A DNA stretch of 64,000 nucleotides from Myxococcaceae bacterium. GTDB lineage: Bacteria > Myxococcota > Myxococcia > Myxococcales > Myxococcaceae. The position numbers were made by a program, and so were the translations under genes. Under the pieces are notes generated by a model. The model worked only from the letters and a program-made list of their open reading frames with translations, was not told where the DNA came from and did not search any database. The stretch spans positions 248,001-312,000 of the forward strand of contig JAEUJQ010000032.1 in the NCBI GenBank assembly GCA_016793095.1, written 5' to 3'. Of this stretch, positions 11,071 to 60,873 are shown piece after piece; position 1 is the first letter of the stretch; each line of letters opens with the position of its first letter.

Positions 11071-12003
11071 CTACTTCGTCGGCGCGCCCGCTCGCGGAAG
11101 CTGGGCCTTGACCAGCGGCAGCTCGTGGCGCTTGCCCTCGACCGTCACCAGGACGACCGCCTCGCCGTCGTCGCGATACGTCGGACCGTCACCGCTCACC
11201 TCCGAGTGCCCTCGCAGCCAGCCGCGGCTCCGCTTCATGAGCGCGCCATCGGAGACGAGCGTGACGGCGGCCACCTCGTACTCGAGCTTCGAGCGCGTGA
11301 AGACTCGGGCGATCGGCAGGGTCTGCCAGAGGTTGGCGTTGATGGGGGCGGGGTCGATGGTCACGATCCGCTCGCAGTCTTCCGAGACGAAGCGGAGGTG
11401 CTCCTTCGGCATCTGGCAGGGCGCGGTCTCGGACCAGAGCACGCTGCCGTCCTTCTTCTCGCAGCGCACCTCGCAGCCCTTCGACACCTCCGTCGAGTGG
11501 AGCACCACCGCGCCGCTGTGGCTCGGCGTCGCCCAGCTCGACTCCTTGAGCATGAACTGTCGGGGGCCCCGCTGGCCTGGCAGCAGCGGGCCGAGGTCGA
11601 GCGGCTCGGCGTGCTCGGGCCAATGGGAGGCGTCGTGAGGGACGGGGCGCTGCAGGTCCGCGCTCATGGCCAGGGACACGGTGACGGGCCGCTGCGAAAG
11701 GCCGAAGAGGACGTCCACCGCGCCGTCGAAGTGGACCGCGACCGACCGCCGCAAGGTCTCTTCGCCGGGTGTCACGCGCACGGACGACGACATGGTGACG
11801 ATCCACCTGCCGCTCAGGCCGCGGGCGCTCACGAGGCGGGAGCCAGCCATGGCGAAGTCCCTCGCCTCGACGAGCGTCTCGTCGGCGGCGAGCTGTCGGA
11901 TGCTCGATTCGACCACGCGAGGGGCCGCGACGACTGCCAGCACCTGCCAGGCGCCCAGCAGGCCGAGGCCACCGAAGACGAGGGCAGTCGACAGACGGCG
12001 CAT
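11071..12003 (-). CDS. Secreted or membrane-anchored protein, unknown function
   Basis: A 310-residue protein with a single N-terminal hydrophobic segment (ALVFGGLGLLGAWQVLAVVAA) and no lipobox, so a signal peptide or membrane anchor. The rest is predicted extracytoplasmic, with Cys pairs around VSKGCEVRCEKKDG and VSEDCERIV that could form disulfides. I recognise no domain. It converges on the HEAT gene with only 17 bases between the stops. TACCGT sits 11 bases before the ATG as a weak -10 candidate. Confidence 0.72.
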   Translation of the reverse strand: MRRLSTALVFGGLGLLGAWQVLAVVAAPRVVESSIRQLAADETLVEARDFAMAGSRLVSARGLSGRWIVTMSSSVRVTPGEETLRRSVAVHFDGAVDVLFGLSQRPVTVSLAMSADLQRPVPHDASHWPEHAEPLDLGPLLPGQRGPRQFMLKESSWATPSHSGAVVLHSTEVSKGCEVRCEKKDGSVLWSETAPCQMPKEHLRFVSEDCERIVTIDPAPINANLWQTLPIARVFTRSKLEYEVAAVTLVSDGALMKRSRGWLRGHSEVSGDGPTYRDDGEAVVLVTVEGKRHELPLVKAQLPRAGAPTK

Positions 12004-12069
12004 GCGCGAAGGGAACGGTAACGCATTCGCCCGGTCGTCGTGCCATGAGTTGCGGGCGTCAGTCGCGAC

Positions 12070-15000
12070 TCACCCTTCCCAGTGCTCCAGCGCCCCACGC
12101 ACCCGCTTGTACCGCTCGAGCAGCTCGGCCTTCTTCGTCGTCACCACCACCATGAAGCCGACGATGGCGAGGCCGAGGGCCGAGAGGAACAAGGCTCCCA
12201 GCCGCGGCTCGCGCACGCCCCACCGCACCAGCGTCGCCACCACCGTGGTGACCAGGAACACCGAGCCGAGCGTCACGAAGCTGCGAATGCGCAGCGCGAT
12301 GCCCGCCGCCACGCCCGCCACGCACAGCGCGACGCACAGGAAGAAGGCCCCCGGCGCGTCGATGGCCAGCGGACGGAACGCGGCCGCCGCGTAGACGAGC
12401 CCCACTGACACCGCGCGCAGCCGCGCCGCCCACACCTCCCCCAGCTCCGACGAGAACAGGTGCACCAGCACCAGGCCCGACAGCCCCGCCGGCACCAGCA
12501 CGTACTGCGCCTCGCCCCACCCCAAGCCGAACCACAGCGTCACCACCGCCGTGTTGAAGGCCACCGCCGACGCGATGGACGCCAGCTTCGACGTGCCCGC
12601 CTGCGCCAGCAGCGCGTAGTGCACCGCGATGGCCACCAGCAGCGCCGCCATCGGCACCGGCGCTCCCCACGGAGCCAGCACCAGGCCCACCACCGGCCAC
12701 GCCATGGCCACCTGCCGCAGCGCCGCCGCCACGTCCGGCGTCGCCTCCGCGCTCCGCTGCCCGAGCACACCCGCCACGCCCGCCACCACCAACGCCGCGA
12801 CGGACTCCGGCAACCCGAGCGGACCGCCGAACAGCCCCCGCGTGAGCAGGAAGCCCGCTGAGAGCGCGAGCACGCCCAGCCACACGCCCGACGCCTCGTC
12901 CTCCTTCGCGTCACGCCACGCGAGCCACAGCGACAGGCCGACCGCGAGCACCACCGCCACCGCCTCCCGCCCATGGCCGCCCGGGCACAGCGCCGCGCCG
13001 GCCGCGAGCTCGACGATGGCCACTGCGCGCAGCGTCAGGCCAACGCCAGCGTGCTGCCGGACCCACGGCGACAGCGACGGCCGCAGCGCCACCAGCACCG
13101 AGGCCAGCGCGAACCACGGGAGGATGAGCGCCTTCGGCGCCCCCGACGACAGCGTCACGCCAGCCCACGCGAGCACGGCGTGCGAGGCCGCCCAGACCGC
13201 CGCCCAGCCCACCCACCGCAACGACGGCTTCGCGCGAACCACCGCCCACGCGGTGAGCGCCGCGAGGCTCCAACACACGGGCAACTGCCAGGCGTGCAGC
13301 GCCGCGCTCGGCACCAGCGACACCGCCACCAGCGCCCAGCCGGTGTGCAGCCGCGCCGGTGACGCGTCGCCTTCGCGCAGCGCCCCGAACCACGCCAGCC
13401 CAGCTCCGAACAGCGCCAACGTCACCGACGCGTCGAGCGGCTCCAACCGCAACCACAGCGTCAGCGCCACCAGCAGCGCCGCCACCACCGACTCCACCAC
13501 CCGCGGCGTCACCAGCAGCGCCAGCGCCGGCGCGAGCCACACCAGCGAGGGCTGCGGCGAGGCGAGCAGCACCATCACCGCGGCGCTGCTCCAGAGCGCG
13601 ACGTCCAGGTGCTTGCCCGGCGCTCCCAGGCGCTCCCACCCGTCCTCCACCGCCTCGAGCACGAAGCCCCGGCGCAGCGCGACCGCGCCCAGCGCCGCCG
13701 CCAGCGCCAGCCCCACCGTCCACGGCGCGAGCGTGAGGTCGCCGCGGGTGACGAGGAGCGGTAGATCGACCACCGCGGCGAGCAGGACCACCGGCACCAG
13801 CACCGCCAGGCCGAGCAACAGTACGACGCCCACCAGCGAGCCCACGAGCACCGCCTGCGTCGCCACGCCCGGGTGCAGCAGGAACCCGACGCTCGCGAGG
13901 CCCAGCGCCGACAGCGCCGCCGCCGGCTGAGAGAACTCCAACGACCGCGCCCCGAGCAGCGCCGAGGTCCTCTGCGGCAGGTGCCGGATGGCGAAGCCCA
14001 CCGCGAGCAGCGCGCCCACTGAGACGGCGCCGAGCAGCGGCGACGGAGCGAACGCCATCACGCACGCGACGAGCACCAGCCGCACCGCGAGCGCGCCCAC
14101 CGGCAGCACCAGGAGCGCGACCGCCCACGCGACGAAGACGACGGGCGAGAGCGGGAGGCTCACTGCCGCGAGCGTGGACAGGAGCGCCGAGAGCGCCGTC
14201 ACCGAAACGGTGAGCCGGTCCCGCACCAGCTCGCGCGCGCCGCTCCGCAGAGAGAACGCGACCGCCAGCGCGACCGCCGGCGCCGCCACCAGCCACGCGC
14301 CACCCACCCAGAACGCCGCCGCCGAGACGAGCGCCGTCGCGAACAGCCGCGCCGCCGGACGACGGAGCGCGACCGACCACACCACCGGCGCCGCCGCGGC
14401 CACCACCATCGGCAGCCACCGGATCGACGGCTCCAGCGTGAGGGCGGGACCGAGGAAGAGACCGCTCATCACCACCGCCGGCCACCCGAGGCGCTGACCG
14501 GCGAGCACCTTCGTCGTCAGGGACACCCGGTCGAGCAGCGCCAGGGCCGCGAGCCCCACCGCCAGCGCCGAGAAGGCCACGGGCAGGTGTGCCTCCGGCA
14601 GGTGCAGCGTCAGCTCGAGGCCGATCAGGAGCGACGCCAGCGGCACGGTCACCGCGGCGAGGAGCGCGGGGGTCGCGAGCACGGCGACGGCCGCCGCGAG
14701 CAGGAGGGACGGCGTGTCGAGGTCGAGGCAGCCCGTCAGCGCGAAGAGGACGCCCAGCGAAGCCAGCCACGTCGTGCGCCAGGTGCGCCCAGCCCGCACC
14801 GCCTGCACCGACGCCGACAGCACGACGATGCCGGCCAGCGCCTGCGGGACCAGCGGCGTCGGCCACGGGAAGGGCCCCTCGGGCAGGAGTGAGGACAGCG
14901 CCAGCGCCCAGCCGCACGCCTCGAGCACCACCGCCGCGGCGCGCTCGGAGCTGCGCGCGCAGAGGAAGAAGGCGGCCGCCGAGACGAGCAGGACGACGCC

Positions 15001-55601: not shown

Positions 55602-56450
55602 ATGGTGCCCATGCCCCCCGAGCTCGTCGAGCGGCTCATCGAGGAGCGCCGCAAACACCACGTGCCGACGCAGCTGCGACCGCTGGCCCAGCAGTTCGCG
55701 CAACAGTGCCTCGGCGTGCTGTTCCCGCACTTCGCGCCGATGGTGGTGTGCAGCGAAGACGCGGTGCACGAAGACCTCATCGAGCTCGAGGAGCTGCTGC
55801 GGCGGCTCGAGCGCAGCGTGGGCACCCTGCACGAGGCCATGCCGGAGCGCTTGTCCGAGCGCTTCTTCGCGTCGCTCGCCGAGGTGCACGCCCGGCTGGC
55901 GGACGACGCCCAGGCCATCTTCGAGGGCGACCCCGCCGCGAAGAGCGTCGACGAGGTGCTGCTCACCTACCCCGGCTTCTACGCCATCGCCGTCTTCCGG
56001 GTGGCGAACCTGCTGCAGCGAATCGGCATGCCGCTCCTGCCGCGCCTGCTGACGGAGTACGCGCACGAGAAGACGGGCATCGACATTCACCCGGGCGCCA
56101 CCATCGGCCGGCGCTTCTGCATCGACCACGGCACCGGCATCGTCATCGGCGAGACGACGCACATCGGCGACCACGTGAAGCTGTACCAGGGCGTGACGCT
56201 GGGGGCGCTCACCGTCGAGAAGGGCCTCGCGGACTCGAAGCGCCACCCCACCATCGGCAACGACGTCGTCATCTACGCCGGCGCCACCATTCTCGGGGGC
56301 CAGACGAACGTGGGGCACCACTCCATCATCGCGGGCAACGCGTTCGTCACCAGCTCGGTGCCTGCGAACTCGGTGGTGACGCGGAAGAACGACGTGCGGC
56401 CGCGCGACGCCGCGTCGACGATGTTCGACGACCTCGACTACGTCATCTGA
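55602..56450 (+). CDS. cysE: Serine O-acetyltransferase
   Basis: A 282-residue enzyme that acetylates serine with acetyl-CoA, the first step of cysteine synthesis. The helical N-terminal domain (LLRRLERSVGTLHEAMPERL) is followed by the left-handed beta-helix with hexapeptide repeats: GIDIHPGATIGRRFCIDHG, GIVIGETTHIGDHVKLYQGV, and PTIGNDVVIYAGATILGG. The catalytic Asp-His lie in CIDHGTG. The tail reads NSVVTRKNDVRPRDAAS. GAGGG lies before the ATG. It is 14 bases after the lipoprotein gene. Its last 94 bases occur again at 58865-58958. Confidence 0.96.
   Translation: MVPMPPELVERLIEERRKHHVPTQLRPLAQQFAQQCLGVLFPHFAPMVVCSEDAVHEDLIELEELLRRLERSVGTLHEAMPERLSERFFASLAEVHARLADDAQAIFEGDPAAKSVDEVLLTYPGFYAIAVFRVANLLQRIGMPLLPRLLTEYAHEKTGIDIHPGATIGRRFCIDHGTGIVIGETTHIGDHVKLYQGVTLGALTVEKGLADSKRHPTIGNDVVIYAGATILGGQTNVGHHSIIAGNAFVTSSVPANSVVTRKNDVRPRDAASTMFDDLDYVI
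56357..56450 (+). repeat. cysE 3' end, first copy of a 94-bp direct repeat
   Basis: Same length as the second copy at 58865-58958, with six mismatches (about 94% identity). This copy lies in frame in the intact cysE. Confidence 0.95.
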
Positions 56451-56540
56451 GCCGCTCCGCCGAAGAAGGACTGGGCCGCGCTGACGCCGCGGCATGCCGG
56501 CCCGGCCGCGCCCTGACGTCGTTCACGTCCGCTCCAGCCG

Positions 56541-58841
56541 TCAGAGCGGGCAGATGAGCGTCGACGAGGGGCACTGGCAGATGTCGATGGGCATCGCGTC
56601 CGGCACGCACATGCCGTTGTTGCAGACGCGCAGGAAGAGGTCGCCGCAGGCGTCGCCCGGCCCGGTGCAGTTGAGGCACACCGGCGAGGCGCACGACTGG
56701 CCCTGCGGGTTCCGCGTGCACGCCCGGCTCGTGCCCGACGGCGTTCCAGCGACGCAGCTGCCCGCCGCCGTACAGCTGCTGTTGGTGATGGTGCCGCTCT
56801 CGGTGCCGGTCAACGCGCAGAACGTGGAGCCCGAGCAGGTGCCGCTCCAGGTGGTGGTGCTGCCGCAGGGGATGCCGCTGGGGTTGAAGGTGCAGGCGCG
56901 CGAGGTGCCTGCGCTGCCTGTGACGTTGCAGGCTCCCGCGGCGTTGCAGGTGCTGGAGTTGATGGTGCCGGCCTCGGTGCCGCTCGTCGTGCAGGTGCCG
57001 CCCGTCGAGCTCTGCACGCACGTGCCGGTCCACACCGTGTTCGTCCCGCAGGGCGTGCCGTTCGGGTTGAAGGTGCACGCGCGTGACGTCGACATCGTGC
57101 CCGTCACCAGGCACTGCCCGCTCGCGTTGCAGGTGCTGGTGTTGATGGTGCCCGCCTCGGTGCCCGTGGTGGAGCAACCGCCGCCCGTCTGGACGCACGA
57201 GCCAGACCACACGGTGTTCGAGCCGCAGCCGGTGCCCGCCGGGTTGAAGGTGCAGGCCTGCGACGTCGGCATGCCGGCGCCAGTGACGCATTGGCCGGTC
57301 GCGTTGCAGGTCCTCGGGGTGGTGGTGCCGGCCTGGGTGCCCGTGGTGCTGCACCCGCTGCCCACCTGCGTGCAGTTTCCGAACGTCGTCGAGGTGCCGC
57401 AGTCGCGCGAGACGGGGTTGTAGGCGCAGCCACGGCTGGTGGCCTGGGGCCCGGCGACGACGCACGCGTTGTTCATGCAGGTCCGCGACGTCGACGAGCC
57501 AGCCTCGGTGCCAGTCGTGGGACACGCGCCGGGGCCGGGGGTGCAGATGCCGCTCCAACTCGAGGTGGACCCACAGTCGTTGCCGTTTCGCGCGGTGACG
57601 GCGTCGGCGGGACAGACCGGACTCGTGCCGTCGCACCGCTCGGGCGCATCGCAGGTGTTCGTCGATGGGCGACACTCGACGCTCGAGCCGAGAATGGAGC
57701 AGGTGCCGACGCTGCCCGTCCGGTTGCAGACCTGACAGTCGCCGCTCGCGCCACCACCACACGCGGTGTTGCAGCACACGCCGTCGACGCAGTTCCCGCT
57801 CACGCACTCGGCGCCCATGCCGCAGGTCGAGCCCTCGGGCTTCTTCGCCGCGCAGAGCGTTCCTGAGCAGTACGTGTTGGCGGGGCAGCCAGCCGTACAG
57901 GGAATCGGGCAGTCGACGTTGGTGCCGTTGCAGGTGACGGTGCCACCGCACACCGGCTCTCCAGGGTCACCGGAGGGAGAGGGCCGACAGGTGCCTGCGG
58001 GCATCAGGTCGCAGCGGTCACAGCTGCCGGTGCAGGGCGTCGAGCAGCAGACCCCGTTCGCGCACGAGCCCGACGTGCACTGGAAGTTCGCGGTGCAGAC
58101 CTGACCAGCGGCGCGGGTCGGCTGGCAGGTGCCCGAGTCGCAGAAGGAGCCGCTCGCACATTGCCGCGACGACGTGCACATCGTGGGGCAACCCGGCTGG
58201 CCGTCGCAGACGAAGGGCGCGCACGACGACGCGGTGCCTTCAGGCAGCACGGCGCACGACCCCTCGCGGCCCGCCTGGGCGCACGACTCGCAGGCGCCAC
58301 TGCAGGTGCGGTCGCAGCACCGGCCCTGGGCGCAGATTCCGCTCGCACACGGAACACCGGCGACGCACGGCTGGCCGGTCGCAATCGTCGCGGTGCCGCC
58401 GCCTGAGCCGCCGGCACTCCCCCCGCCTGATCCGCCCGCGTCACCGCCGCCTGCTCCGCCCGCGTCACCGCCGCTCGACCCGCCAGCGCTCCCCCCGCCT
58501 GCTCCGCCCGCGTCACCGCCCCCTGAACCGCCCGCGTCACCGCCCCCTGAACCGCCCGCGTCACCGCCGCCTTGTGCCGAGCCGCCCGCACGTCCGCCAC
58601 CCACTCCGCCCGCCGTCATCGACTGGCCCCCACCAGCACCTCCCCCCATCGAACCACCAGCGCCGCCGGCCCCGCCATCGCGCGTCTCACAGGACGCCAC
58701 ACACACGCCCTCGCAGCAGACGAGCGCACTGGAGCACCCCCCCTCGGGATCACAGCTGAACGACATCACGTCGGACGGGTCGACGCACACGCACCCGCCA
58801 ACCAGCGCCAGCGACAGGACGAGCAGAGGACGGAGGTGCAC
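56541..58841 (-). CDS. Stalked Cys-rich repeat lipoprotein, inserted next to cysE
   Basis: A 766-residue lipoprotein starting at GTG 58841 (LLVLSLALVGGC, Cys17). A Cys-rich head (SCDPEGGCSSALVCC) precedes a Gly-rich GGDAGGS stalk. A Cys-rich middle (GICAQGRCCDRTC, CSTPCTGSCDRCD) is followed by four to five tandem units of about 59-61 residues, recognised by RACTFNPxGxxCGxxTxWxG and GTEAGTINxSTCNAxGxC. The end is LNCTGPGDACGDLFLRVC. TAACCT lies 7 bases before the GTG. The whole gene lies between two cysE 3'-end copies, so it probably arrived as a unit. Confidence 0.85.
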   Translation of the reverse strand: MHLRPLLVLSLALVGGCVCVDPSDVMSFSCDPEGGCSSALVCCEGVCVASCETRDGGAGGAGGSMGGGAGGGQSMTAGGVGGGRAGGSAQGGGDAGGSGGGDAGGSGGGDAGGAGGGSAGGSSGGDAGGAGGGDAGGSGGGSAGGSGGGTATIATGQPCVAGVPCASGICAQGRCCDRTCSGACESCAQAGREGSCAVLPEGTASSCAPFVCDGQPGCPTMCTSSRQCASGSFCDSGTCQPTRAAGQVCTANFQCTSGSCANGVCCSTPCTGSCDRCDLMPAGTCRPSPSGDPGEPVCGGTVTCNGTNVDCPIPCTAGCPANTYCSGTLCAAKKPEGSTCGMGAECVSGNCVDGVCCNTACGGGASGDCQVCNRTGSVGTCSILGSSVECRPSTNTCDAPERCDGTSPVCPADAVTARNGNDCGSTSSWSGICTPGPGACPTTGTEAGSSTSRTCMNNACVVAGPQATSRGCAYNPVSRDCGTSTTFGNCTQVGSGCSTTGTQAGTTTPRTCNATGQCVTGAGMPTSQACTFNPAGTGCGSNTVWSGSCVQTGGGCSTTGTEAGTINTSTCNASGQCLVTGTMSTSRACTFNPNGTPCGTNTVWTGTCVQSSTGGTCTTSGTEAGTINSSTCNAAGACNVTGSAGTSRACTFNPSGIPCGSTTTWSGTCSGSTFCALTGTESGTITNSSCTAAGSCVAGTPSGTSRACTRNPQGQSCASPVCLNCTGPGDACGDLFLRVCNNGMCVPDAMPIDICQCPSSTLICPL
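56660..57440 (-). repeat. Tandem 177-183-bp repeats encoding ~60-residue Cys-rich units
   Basis: On the plus strand gggttgaaggtgca recurs at 56881, 57064 and 57241, marking successive units. Identity between units is moderate, so the array is older than the knottin-like one. Confidence 0.8.
58400..58670 (-). repeat. Gly-rich stalk repeats of the inserted lipoprotein
   Basis: Multiples of 12-18 bases encoding [14 protein letters not shown] and related runs, all in frame. Confidence 0.8.
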
Positions 58842-58848
58842 GGAGCCG

Positions 58849-58854
58849 AGGTTA
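58849..58854 (-). promoter_or_regulatory. Possible -10 element for the inserted lipoprotein gene
   Basis: On the minus strand TAACCT is followed by 7 bases and then GTG 58839-58841; no ribosome binding site is close enough. It lies inside the inserted segment, 11 bases from the second cysE fragment. Confidence 0.33.
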
Positions 58855-58864
58855 CCCTCAAAAC

Positions 58865-58958
58865 GGTGCCGGCGAACCCGGTGGTGACGCGGAAGAACGA
58901 CGTGCGGCCGCGGGACGCCGCGTCGACGATGTTCGACGACCTCGACGACGTCTGCTGA
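58865..58958 (+). pseudogene. Duplicated 3' fragment of cysE
   Basis: Encodes VPANPVVTRKNDVRPRDAAS and on to a stop, the last 30 codons of a serine acetyltransferase. It has no start and no upstream homology to cysE beyond base 58865. Compared with the intact gene it has six base changes, altering Ser to Pro, Tyr to Asp and Ile to Cys near the end. It stands as a remnant between the lipoprotein promoter and the next gene. Confidence 0.92.
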
Positions 58959-58969
58959 GGCCGAGCCCC

Positions 58970-60769
58970 TCACGGGAGCGGGACGCTGACCTCGTCCACC
59001 ACCTCGGGCGCGAGCATGCCCTCGACGAGGAGCGTGCGCAGCGCGGCGACCTCGGGCGAGTCTCGCTCGAGCTGCTCGTCGAGGTAACGGGGGTGGAACG
59101 TCTGGTACCGCAGGCGCGCGTCGACGCGGCCACCGACCGGGGGCGCAGGCAGCGACACCTGCACAGCGTCACTCCCCGACAGGAAGTCAGCGTCGGTGAC
59201 GCCCACCGGCGCGGTGGACAGCGGCCCCACGGTGGTGTCCTGGTGACCGCGCGGCAGCAGCCGGTTGTCCTTGAGGAACCCCTCCGCGCCGAGCAGCGCG
59301 AAGGAGGCGTGGCCGTGGCCGTCGCTCATCACCGCCTCCCACACCATCGGCTCCCTCGCAGACGTCACGCGCGAGCGGTGCGCGAACGTCGGTCCGTGGA
59401 CGCGCTCCTCGGGCAAGGGCTGGCCGTCGTCGCCGACGAGCCGGCCGGCCGCGTCGGTGAGGCCAGTCGCGCTCACCCGGCTCCCCGACGCGTCGAACAC
59501 CTGCACCTCGAGGAACAGCCGCCGGCTCGGGTAGCCGCTCGGCACCTTGTGGCCCGTGAGTGACTCGACGCGCACGGAGAGCTCGACCCGTGCGCCGACC
59601 CTCGCGACGTTCGAGAGGGTGAGCTTCGCGGTCTGCGTCCGGAGCAGCTCGCGGCTGCGCTGCTCCGCCTCGAGGAGGGCCGCGTCCGTCGCCTCAGGGG
59701 TGAGGAGCGCCCGGCCCTGCCGCAACAGCTTCGGCAGCAGGGTGTTGGCGCCGACGAAGGAGTGCCGTGAGAAGGGCCCGCGCGGTGACACCGGTGGGAA
59801 GTCTCCACCTTCGGGGCGTCGGGCGAGGCGCGTCGAGAGGGGCTGCCCGTTGGCCTGCCGATCCGGCATGTGGCAGTCCTGACAGCTCTGGGGCGTCGTT
59901 CCGCCCCCCTCGGTCGAGAAGGCCGAGCGCCGCCACTCGAGGTACGTCAGCTGCTCGCCCATGCGGTGCCCGGTGGCGACACCTTCGGGCGTGAGGGCCT
60001 CAGTCACCAGCGCGTGGCAGGTGCCGCACATCGCCGAGGACTGCACGTGCGCGCCCTGCACGGGCGTGAAGCCGGTGCGCCCCACCATCGGGTTCGCGAA
60101 CGGCCCGGGGAAGGGGCCGAAGATCTGCTTCGCGCCGGTGACGCGGAAACCAGCGCTGAAGCTCGCCTCGAGGCCGAGGTCCGTCGGCTGGATCTGATGG
60201 CAGAGCGTGCACGAGATGCCATCGCGCGCGAGCGCGCCCACTGGCCCGGCCGCGTAGACGGTGTTCGCGAGGGTCGCCGGCAGGCCGCCGGAGCGCTCGA
60301 GCGCGAGCTTCGCCATCGGCGTGTGGCACGTGAGGCACACCGTCGAGATGGCAGCGGCGGCGGCGGGCGCGCGCGCCTGTTCCGACGCGAGCACCGCGCG
60401 GAAGAGCGGGTCTCTCGCCGAGTTGCCCATGGCGGAAGCGCTCCACCACTCGAAGAGATCGACCGACCGGCCCTGCTCGTCGCGGTTGGCGGTCGAGGTG
60501 GCCGACGAGCTGTGGCACTCCCCGCAGACCCGGCCCGTCGCGAACACGTCATGCTGCACCGCGACCCCGGGCTCGAACGCCGGATGAAGCCCGGCATCAC
60601 CCGGCGCACCTCCACCCGCGCCCACACCTCCAGCAGTCCCGCCGGCCTGGGCTCCTGCTCCCCCGCCGCCTCCACCGCCAGAGGGCGTCGCGCTGCCCGC
60701 GTCGATGACGGCCGGCACCTGACACGCAGCGCCAACGACGGCGAGGAACAGCCAAACGGGTCGTCTCAT
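58970..60769 (-). CDS. Five-haem c-type cytochrome lipoprotein
   Basis: A 599-residue lipoprotein (MRRPVWLFLAVVGAAC, Cys16) with a short Gly-rich stalk. Five CxxCH sites are visible: CGECH, CLTCH, CTLCH, CGTCH and CQDCH, all in the first half of the mature protein, consistent with an octahaem/NapC-like or c554-type fold. The second half is a beta-rich domain (VELSVRVESLTGHKVPSGYP, RRLFLEVQVFDASG) found behind multihaem segments in related proteins. It probably carries electrons outside the cytoplasm. GGAGG lies 5 bases before ATG 60769, the best ribosome binding site in the window. Confidence 0.9.
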   Translation of the reverse strand: MRRPVWLFLAVVGAACQVPAVIDAGSATPSGGGGGGGAGAQAGGTAGGVGAGGGAPGDAGLHPAFEPGVAVQHDVFATGRVCGECHSSSATSTANRDEQGRSVDLFEWWSASAMGNSARDPLFRAVLASEQARAPAAAAAISTVCLTCHTPMAKLALERSGGLPATLANTVYAAGPVGALARDGISCTLCHQIQPTDLGLEASFSAGFRVTGAKQIFGPFPGPFANPMVGRTGFTPVQGAHVQSSAMCGTCHALVTEALTPEGVATGHRMGEQLTYLEWRRSAFSTEGGGTTPQSCQDCHMPDRQANGQPLSTRLARRPEGGDFPPVSPRGPFSRHSFVGANTLLPKLLRQGRALLTPEATDAALLEAEQRSRELLRTQTAKLTLSNVARVGARVELSVRVESLTGHKVPSGYPSRRLFLEVQVFDASGSRVSATGLTDAAGRLVGDDGQPLPEERVHGPTFAHRSRVTSAREPMVWEAVMSDGHGHASFALLGAEGFLKDNRLLPRGHQDTTVGPLSTAPVGVTDADFLSGSDAVQVSLPAPPVGGRVDARLRYQTFHPRYLDEQLERDSPEVAALRTLLVEGMLAPEVVDEVSVPLP

Positions 60770-60873
60770 GTCAACCTCCACCCGGCCACCGCCACGGGCT
60801 CAGAGCCCCGCCTGTGCGGATTCGGTTCGCGGCGAACCAACTTCCTGACAGGCTCGCGCTCACGGTCCCCTCG

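Follow-up and report, generated by a model that had tools for sequence, protein, structure and literature searches.

A predicted lipoprotein gene between two copies of the cysE 3′ end in a Myxococcaceae genome, a probable insertion with duplication of resident DNA

The stretch of 64,000 nucleotides from a Myxococcaceae bacterium analysed here (the window) carries cysE, an intact gene of the serine O-acetyltransferase family, the 3′ end of which recurs downstream in the same orientation, with one gene on the opposite strand between the two copies and a multihaem cytochrome gene beyond the second (Table 1). The cysE product scores above the cut-off of the NCBIfam model for EpsC-type serine acetyltransferase and below that of TIGR01172 (cysE); matches of this type are present in 54 of the 60 genomes searched, its own included, and reach 81–87% in four congeners. 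The repeat spans 96 nucleotides (nt), with six mismatches (93.75% identity). A preliminary description of this DNA had given 94 bases and six mismatches, which is correct as to the reality and orientation of the repeat but places each limit one base short. In a BLAST search of the whole genome with the 96-mer, no third place matches at E ≤0.001, the two copies themselves giving E 3.5e-44 and 4.7e-36 (40 of 249 candidates scored); a repeat of this kind is far beyond chance. An assembly artefact is an unlikely source, because the copies differ at six sites and lie together within a single contig (C76) of 376,710 bases.

As the preliminary description had it, exactly one complete gene lies between the copies. 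It starts with GTG at 58841, encodes 766 amino acids and takes up 2301 of the 2412 bp of the insert. Its product is a predicted lipoprotein with a glycine-rich stalk, Cys-rich repeats and a lipobox-like LVGGC motif read by eye, and matches no family in Pfam, NCBIfam or PADLOC. The insert contains no transposase, integrase or insertion sequence (IS), and the lipoprotein gene leaves no room beside it for an integrase, the lack of which had been pointed out earlier. The promoter once proposed for this gene is not recovered by a sigma-70 consensus scan of 56300–59300, which does not exclude other promoter types; a terminator scan of the same segment found none. When the insert is compared with its own genome, a single full-length match is obtained, the 51 other listed matches being partial (40 of 489 candidates scored).

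Table 1. Coordinates of the features discussed. Positions without prefix refer to the window; C numbers denote contigs of the same genome.
Feature	Position	Strand	Basis or remark
cysE, serine O-acetyltransferase family, intact	55602–56450	+	Pfam Hexapep and SATase_N above cut-off
Target copy 1, live cysE 3′ end including stop	56356–56451	+	Repeat alignment
Inserted segment, 2412 bp	56452–58863		Missing from the G001 junction
Lipoprotein cargo gene	56541–58841	−	Open reading frame (ORF); DNA homology to G003
Target copy 2, decaying duplicate of cysE 3′ end (encodes ..PANP..DDLDDVC*)	58864–58959	+	Repeat alignment
Ancestral cysE/multihaem spacer	58960–58969		With the multihaem stop, GCCCCTCA common to window and G001 empty site
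Multihaem cytochrome gene, convergent with cysE	58970–60781	−	Pfam Cytochrome_C7 and Cytochrom_CIII above cut-off; adjoins cysE in G001 and G003
Case 2, 61 nt, 100%	C29:195033/197809		Round Vsr, C5-methyltransferase and third gene; cassette span C29:195033–197869 = L235:11034–13870
Case 3, 70 nt, 89%	C90:15000/17105		Two genes of no known family inside
Case 4, 38 nt, 97%	C65:166475/168001		TPR protein gene inside; both stop codons of a convergent pair within the repeat
Case 5, 68 nt, 86%	C65:72595/73211		Between two divergent genes; 67-codon ORF inside
Prophage (integrase, terminase, portal) at tRNA-Val	C51:139724–176395		81-nt repeated tRNA 3′ part
Gene-fragment pairs	C51:83432/C53:118164		
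	C51:247821/C76:35011		
	C89:126309/C90:17834		
	C63:237108/C90:366734		
	C51:8457/C89:100742		
	C20:30744/C27:23949		
	C76:81004/C90:65387		

The cysE locus carries an insertion. Comparison with the loci of eight relatives identified an empty site in the congener G001, in which the stop codons of cysE and the convergent multihaem gene are 13 bp apart; in the window, 11 bp separate the stop codons beside copy 2. Copy 2 continues into the ancestral spacer and the multihaem gene, and copy 1 ends the intact cysE. Both the insertion at the cysE 3′ end and the empty site to be sought in relatives, cysE directly beside the multihaem gene, are thus as the preliminary description had proposed. The relatives do not all share the window's arrangement, the counter-case it had named: G001 is empty, and in G003 a DUF2490 gene in the same orientation as cysE (L034:12387–13067) occupies the cysE/multihaem junction. 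Neighbours of the window's cysE are kept in three congeners, and in G006 a thioredoxin gene directly follows cysE. In G002 and four genomes of the same family cysE alone was matched, with no bearing on the site. Matches of two neighbour queries with internal stops (pilB52680 and p62500m) were left out of this comparison.

Sequence comparison of the copies indicates that the resident cysE end was duplicated and not imported, because both share residues that the congeners lack and the changes in copy 2 hit conserved residues. Both copies encode RPRDAASTMFDDLD, a stretch that differs in the three congeners compared, and copy 2 is 94% identical to copy 1 versus 82–83% to the cysE ends of these congeners. 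With the three congeners as outgroups, four of the six differences fall to copy 2 and one, synonymous, to copy 1, the sixth being ambiguous. The four substitutions in copy 2 all alter conserved cysE residues: S becomes P, Y/F becomes D and I becomes C. Copy 1 looks constrained and copy 2 not. A single crossover with a foreign cysE, suggested earlier, is rejected, copy 2 being of the genome's own sequence type. As a rough inference, the event would have taken place well after the split from G001, because copy 2 carries four changes in 96 nt against a synonymous divergence (dS) of 0.31 to G001.

The cargo has relatives elsewhere. The lipoprotein gene is found at other loci in G003 (84%) and G004 (67%), and DNA homology to G003 spans 56537–58862, from a few bases past the stop to a conserved TTTGAGGGTAAC that lies shortly before the GTG; it therefore ends beside the first base of copy 2. 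Between the window and G003, dS amounts to 0.38 (lipoprotein gene) and 0.36 (cysE), lower than the values of 0.52 (thioredoxin gene) and 0.93 (TPR gene; multihaem comparisons involving G003 were left out). From these values, the lipoprotein gene would have been either inherited and then moved, or exchanged with a close lineage. Tracing the genes that flank the G003 and G004 sites, in the own genome and in congeners, revealed no clearly ancestral site. In G003 the lipoprotein gene adjoins an apparent DUF1778/GNAT toxin–antitoxin pair (L091, about 11600–12395; GNAT by Pfam, DUF1778 by eye).

Repeat-flanked segments were also sought in 2,330,411 of the 8,810,604 bases of the draft assembly (about one quarter), as pairs with at least 85% identity, at least 60 bits, a length of at most 400 nt and a spacing of 400 bp to 12 kb; pairs were called isolated when neither copy had another repeat and no parallel pair existed. 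The scan gave 14 direct pairs, six of them isolated, and no inverted pair (an exact 21-nt pair, C53:6403/7776, was left out of the counts). In a control set of 80 cysE loci (875,622 bases; four loci myxobacterial, the rest from other groups) there was one direct pair, with none isolated and none inverted. Five of the six isolated pairs flank apparent inserts, namely cysE and cases 2 to 5 of Table 1; the sixth (C78:100777/101494) was dropped as a shared coding module. In the C29 case two convergent genes each have their stop codon within one of the copies; in G001 (L238) these genes adjoin without the cassette, a second empty site. The Vsr and C5-methyltransferase genes of this cassette, which resembles a restriction–modification (R–M) system, are accompanied by a third gene that matches no nuclease family in Pfam, PADLOC or NCBIfam searches. 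In the C90 case the copies likewise hold one stop codon each, here of convergent DegV and M23 peptidase genes. GC content is 62% for the R–M cargo (0.5 percentile of 2-kb windows) and 66.9% for the C90 cargo (6.5 percentile). All five cases lie at gene boundaries: both copies are clear of any spanning called gene in every case, which holds for 17–21% of random segments of these lengths, the genes being those of a home-made caller that selects on codon score and missed the lipoprotein, R–M and C90 cargo genes. The lipoprotein gene as a unit with ends of its own is rejected, in view of the lack of repeats at the G003 and G004 sites and of common ends, by eye, among the five inserts.

A search of the same genome for dispersed pairs (at least 40 nt, at least 90% identity) yielded 33, of which 21 are intergenic on both sides, nine join a gene to an intergenic site, two join gene to gene and one is a duplicated small gene. 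Two of the nine were set aside (C69/C90, in a tandem repeat; C65/C76, in the lipoprotein gene missed by the caller). The remaining seven are short gene fragments (42–122 nt, 93–100%; Table 1), each pairing a sequence within a gene with a wholly intergenic copy at another place, as read in context for three of them; to the gene at C76:34439–35587 correspond both C51:247821 and C65:11717 (89%), two fragments in intergenic DNA. Such fragments would suit the capture of stray DNA pieces. In addition, a pilin-like small gene (named by eye) with its downstream stretch is present in two 95% copies, C51:32597–32930 and C90:252417–252750.

Taken together, the five look-alike sites point to repair-like gene acquisition without transposon or integrase. 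They fit a target duplicated at insertion rather than an attachment site, because the other cases differ in length (38–70 nt), target and cargo. Lengths of 38–96 nt argue against a transposase cutting at a fixed offset, and the resident origin of the copies argues against a donor bringing the repeat. The explanation that we consider probable is an insertion in which the resident 96 bp were doubled while a foreign fragment of about 2.4 kb was captured at a staggered break, probably sealed by Ku and LigD. In an ancestor, cysE and the multihaem gene would have been convergent neighbours; a fragment holding little more than the lipoprotein gene would have been caught at a break with staggered ends 40–100 nt apart and joined into the junction. 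As the ends were filled in and sealed, probably by the products of the genome's Ku and LigD end-joining genes, a resident stretch of 96 bp that ends at the stop codon of cysE would have come to lie on both sides of the insert, with cysE intact on the left and a non-functional, drifting remnant on the right. Such products would be expected if a staggered break is filled in while its ends are being joined. Selection would then keep only insertions leaving both neighbouring genes whole; surviving cases would sit at boundaries because a duplication across a boundary lets each of the two flanking genes stay complete on its own side. The genome encodes one Ku (PF02735, C38:36245) and two LigD-polymerase matches (TIGR02778, C6:93185 and C31:48253), all above cut-off. 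Both families score above cut-off in six of seven genomes of the genus, this one included, and among 14 control genomes in Bacillus subtilis only.

Several observations weigh against this explanation. End-joining capture at a staggered break is the preferred but unproven mechanism, and G002 has neither Ku nor LigD polymerase. Not every insertion leaves a repeat. The preliminary description had proposed to look for other genes at the same place with a repeated 94-bp end; another gene is indeed found there in G003, but this DUF2490 insert shows no repeated cysE end by reading, and no repeat above 50 bits in the locus. Nor was a flanking repeat found at the G003 and G004 sites of the lipoprotein gene, where only 20-nt and 26-nt matches in G004 (E 0.95 and 0.27) were obtained. 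An empty site is seen for two of the five cases only (cysE and R–M): no M23 gene was found beside DegV in the loci of three congeners, gene A of the 38-nt C65 case was not found in the G001 locus holding gene B, and the 68-nt C65 case has no ortholog for comparison. The right copy of the C29 case lies 542 bases from the end of its contig, the terminal 140 bases of which are found again where C69 begins. GC content is ordinary in three of the five inserts, and the codon scores of the tested cargo genes, which lie at the bottom of the genome, give percentiles biased by the caller's selection on the same score. Lastly, 15 loci of relatives (207,931 bases) contain one weaker pair only (40 nt, 90%; G004, L092:12744–12783 / 13363–13402). 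This G004 repeat is possibly another such footprint.

Three other routes to the same arrangement can be weighed. The preliminary description favoured a circle bringing its own cysE end, that is, a circle or plasmid carrying the lipoprotein gene together with a cysE 3′ end and integrating by homologous or site-specific recombination and regenerating cysE. The geometry is that of integrative elements at tRNA genes, and the genome does hold a true integrase-type case in the tRNA-Val prophage, with its integrase gene and end repeat. Yet we regard this route as improbable: the cysE insert has no room for an integrase, both of its copies are of the resident type (94% vs 82–83%), and the sibling repeats differ in length, target and cargo, one lying between divergent genes. 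Viral carriage is rejected, an exact 33-mer of the repeat having no match in viral contigs, as is plasmid carriage, the insert having a single partial plasmid match (12% of the insert, a PE-family gene).

Replication template switching would yield the same product if the growing strand switched away from cysE behind its stop, used a lipoprotein gene located elsewhere as template and rejoined 96 nt upstream, and the short gene-fragment copies in intergenic DNA speak in its favour. It needs a donor copy in the cell, however, whereas a single full-length lipoprotein gene was found, and the R–M cargo looks imported from its GC content; we give it as little credence as the circle. Short dispersed duplications could also be taken to favour a tandem duplication of the cysE end with the lipoprotein gene inserted between the copies later, but each of the five cases would then need two independent events, in all of them the insert would have to fall between the copies, and the sole other isolated pair is a coding module; this order of events is highly improbable.

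The entry of single accessory genes into chromosomes without a mobile element is not well explained. Here, one genome offers several footprints of one kind of event, of different ages (repeat identity 86–100%), with intact neighbours and end-joining genes, and the route is thus directly testable in a laboratory myxobacterium. A wider proposal, which we find doubtful but worth stating, is that myxobacteria with Ku and LigD routinely acquire single foreign genes by end-joining capture at staggered breaks, the long target duplication acting as a built-in gene saver. If so, even gene-dense DNA could receive fragments with both neighbouring genes left unbroken, this genome would be expected to contain about twenty cases, from the five in 2.33 Mb, and the intergenic gene fragments would be small products of the same process.

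Among known systems, integrative elements and prophages at tRNA genes share with the cysE locus the recurrence of a gene 3′ end beyond the insert, and differ in the integrase and shared border that are missing here. The cysE insert holds no recombinase gene, and different inserts do not use one attachment site, since the G003 insert has no cysE-end repeat and the siblings use other sequences. A further comparison is with transposed Arabidopsis genes, for which one paper (PMC2869330) proposes circle formation between flanking repeats and reintegration, and names target-site duplication as an alternative; as described there, these are single ordinary genes, with direct repeats of more than 30 bp often present at the unoccupied orthologous site, but in a eukaryote. 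Literature titles on such insertions included no myxobacterial case, most subscription papers being outside the search, and absence from print is not claimed.

The closest counterpart is insertion with long target duplication, reportedly recognized in Helicobacter pylori by Nobusato et al. 2000 (Gene 259:99) and Furuta et al. 2010 (NAR). The likenesses are an empty, unduplicated allele in a relative (G001, at the cysE and C29 sites), a long direct repeat of resident target of variable length (96 nt here; 38, 61, 68 and 70 nt at the siblings), the lack of transposase, integrase or IS in the cysE insert, and the C5-methyltransferase/Vsr cassette of the C29 case. Such insertions are described for H. 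pylori R–M genes (PMC3874152, PMC1643837, PMC4978471, PMC3154945), with R–M cargo given as a frequent association and not a strict definition (PMC1643837). In contrast, the insert at cysE brings a single lipoprotein gene rather than R–M genes, Ku and LigD polymerase are present in the host, and several cases of 38–96 nt occur in one genome, all at gene boundaries. The pattern is thus a known one, met here with non-R–M cargo and in another phylum; what is added is that it recurs within a single genome that carries Ku and LigD, and that its cases keep to gene boundaries.

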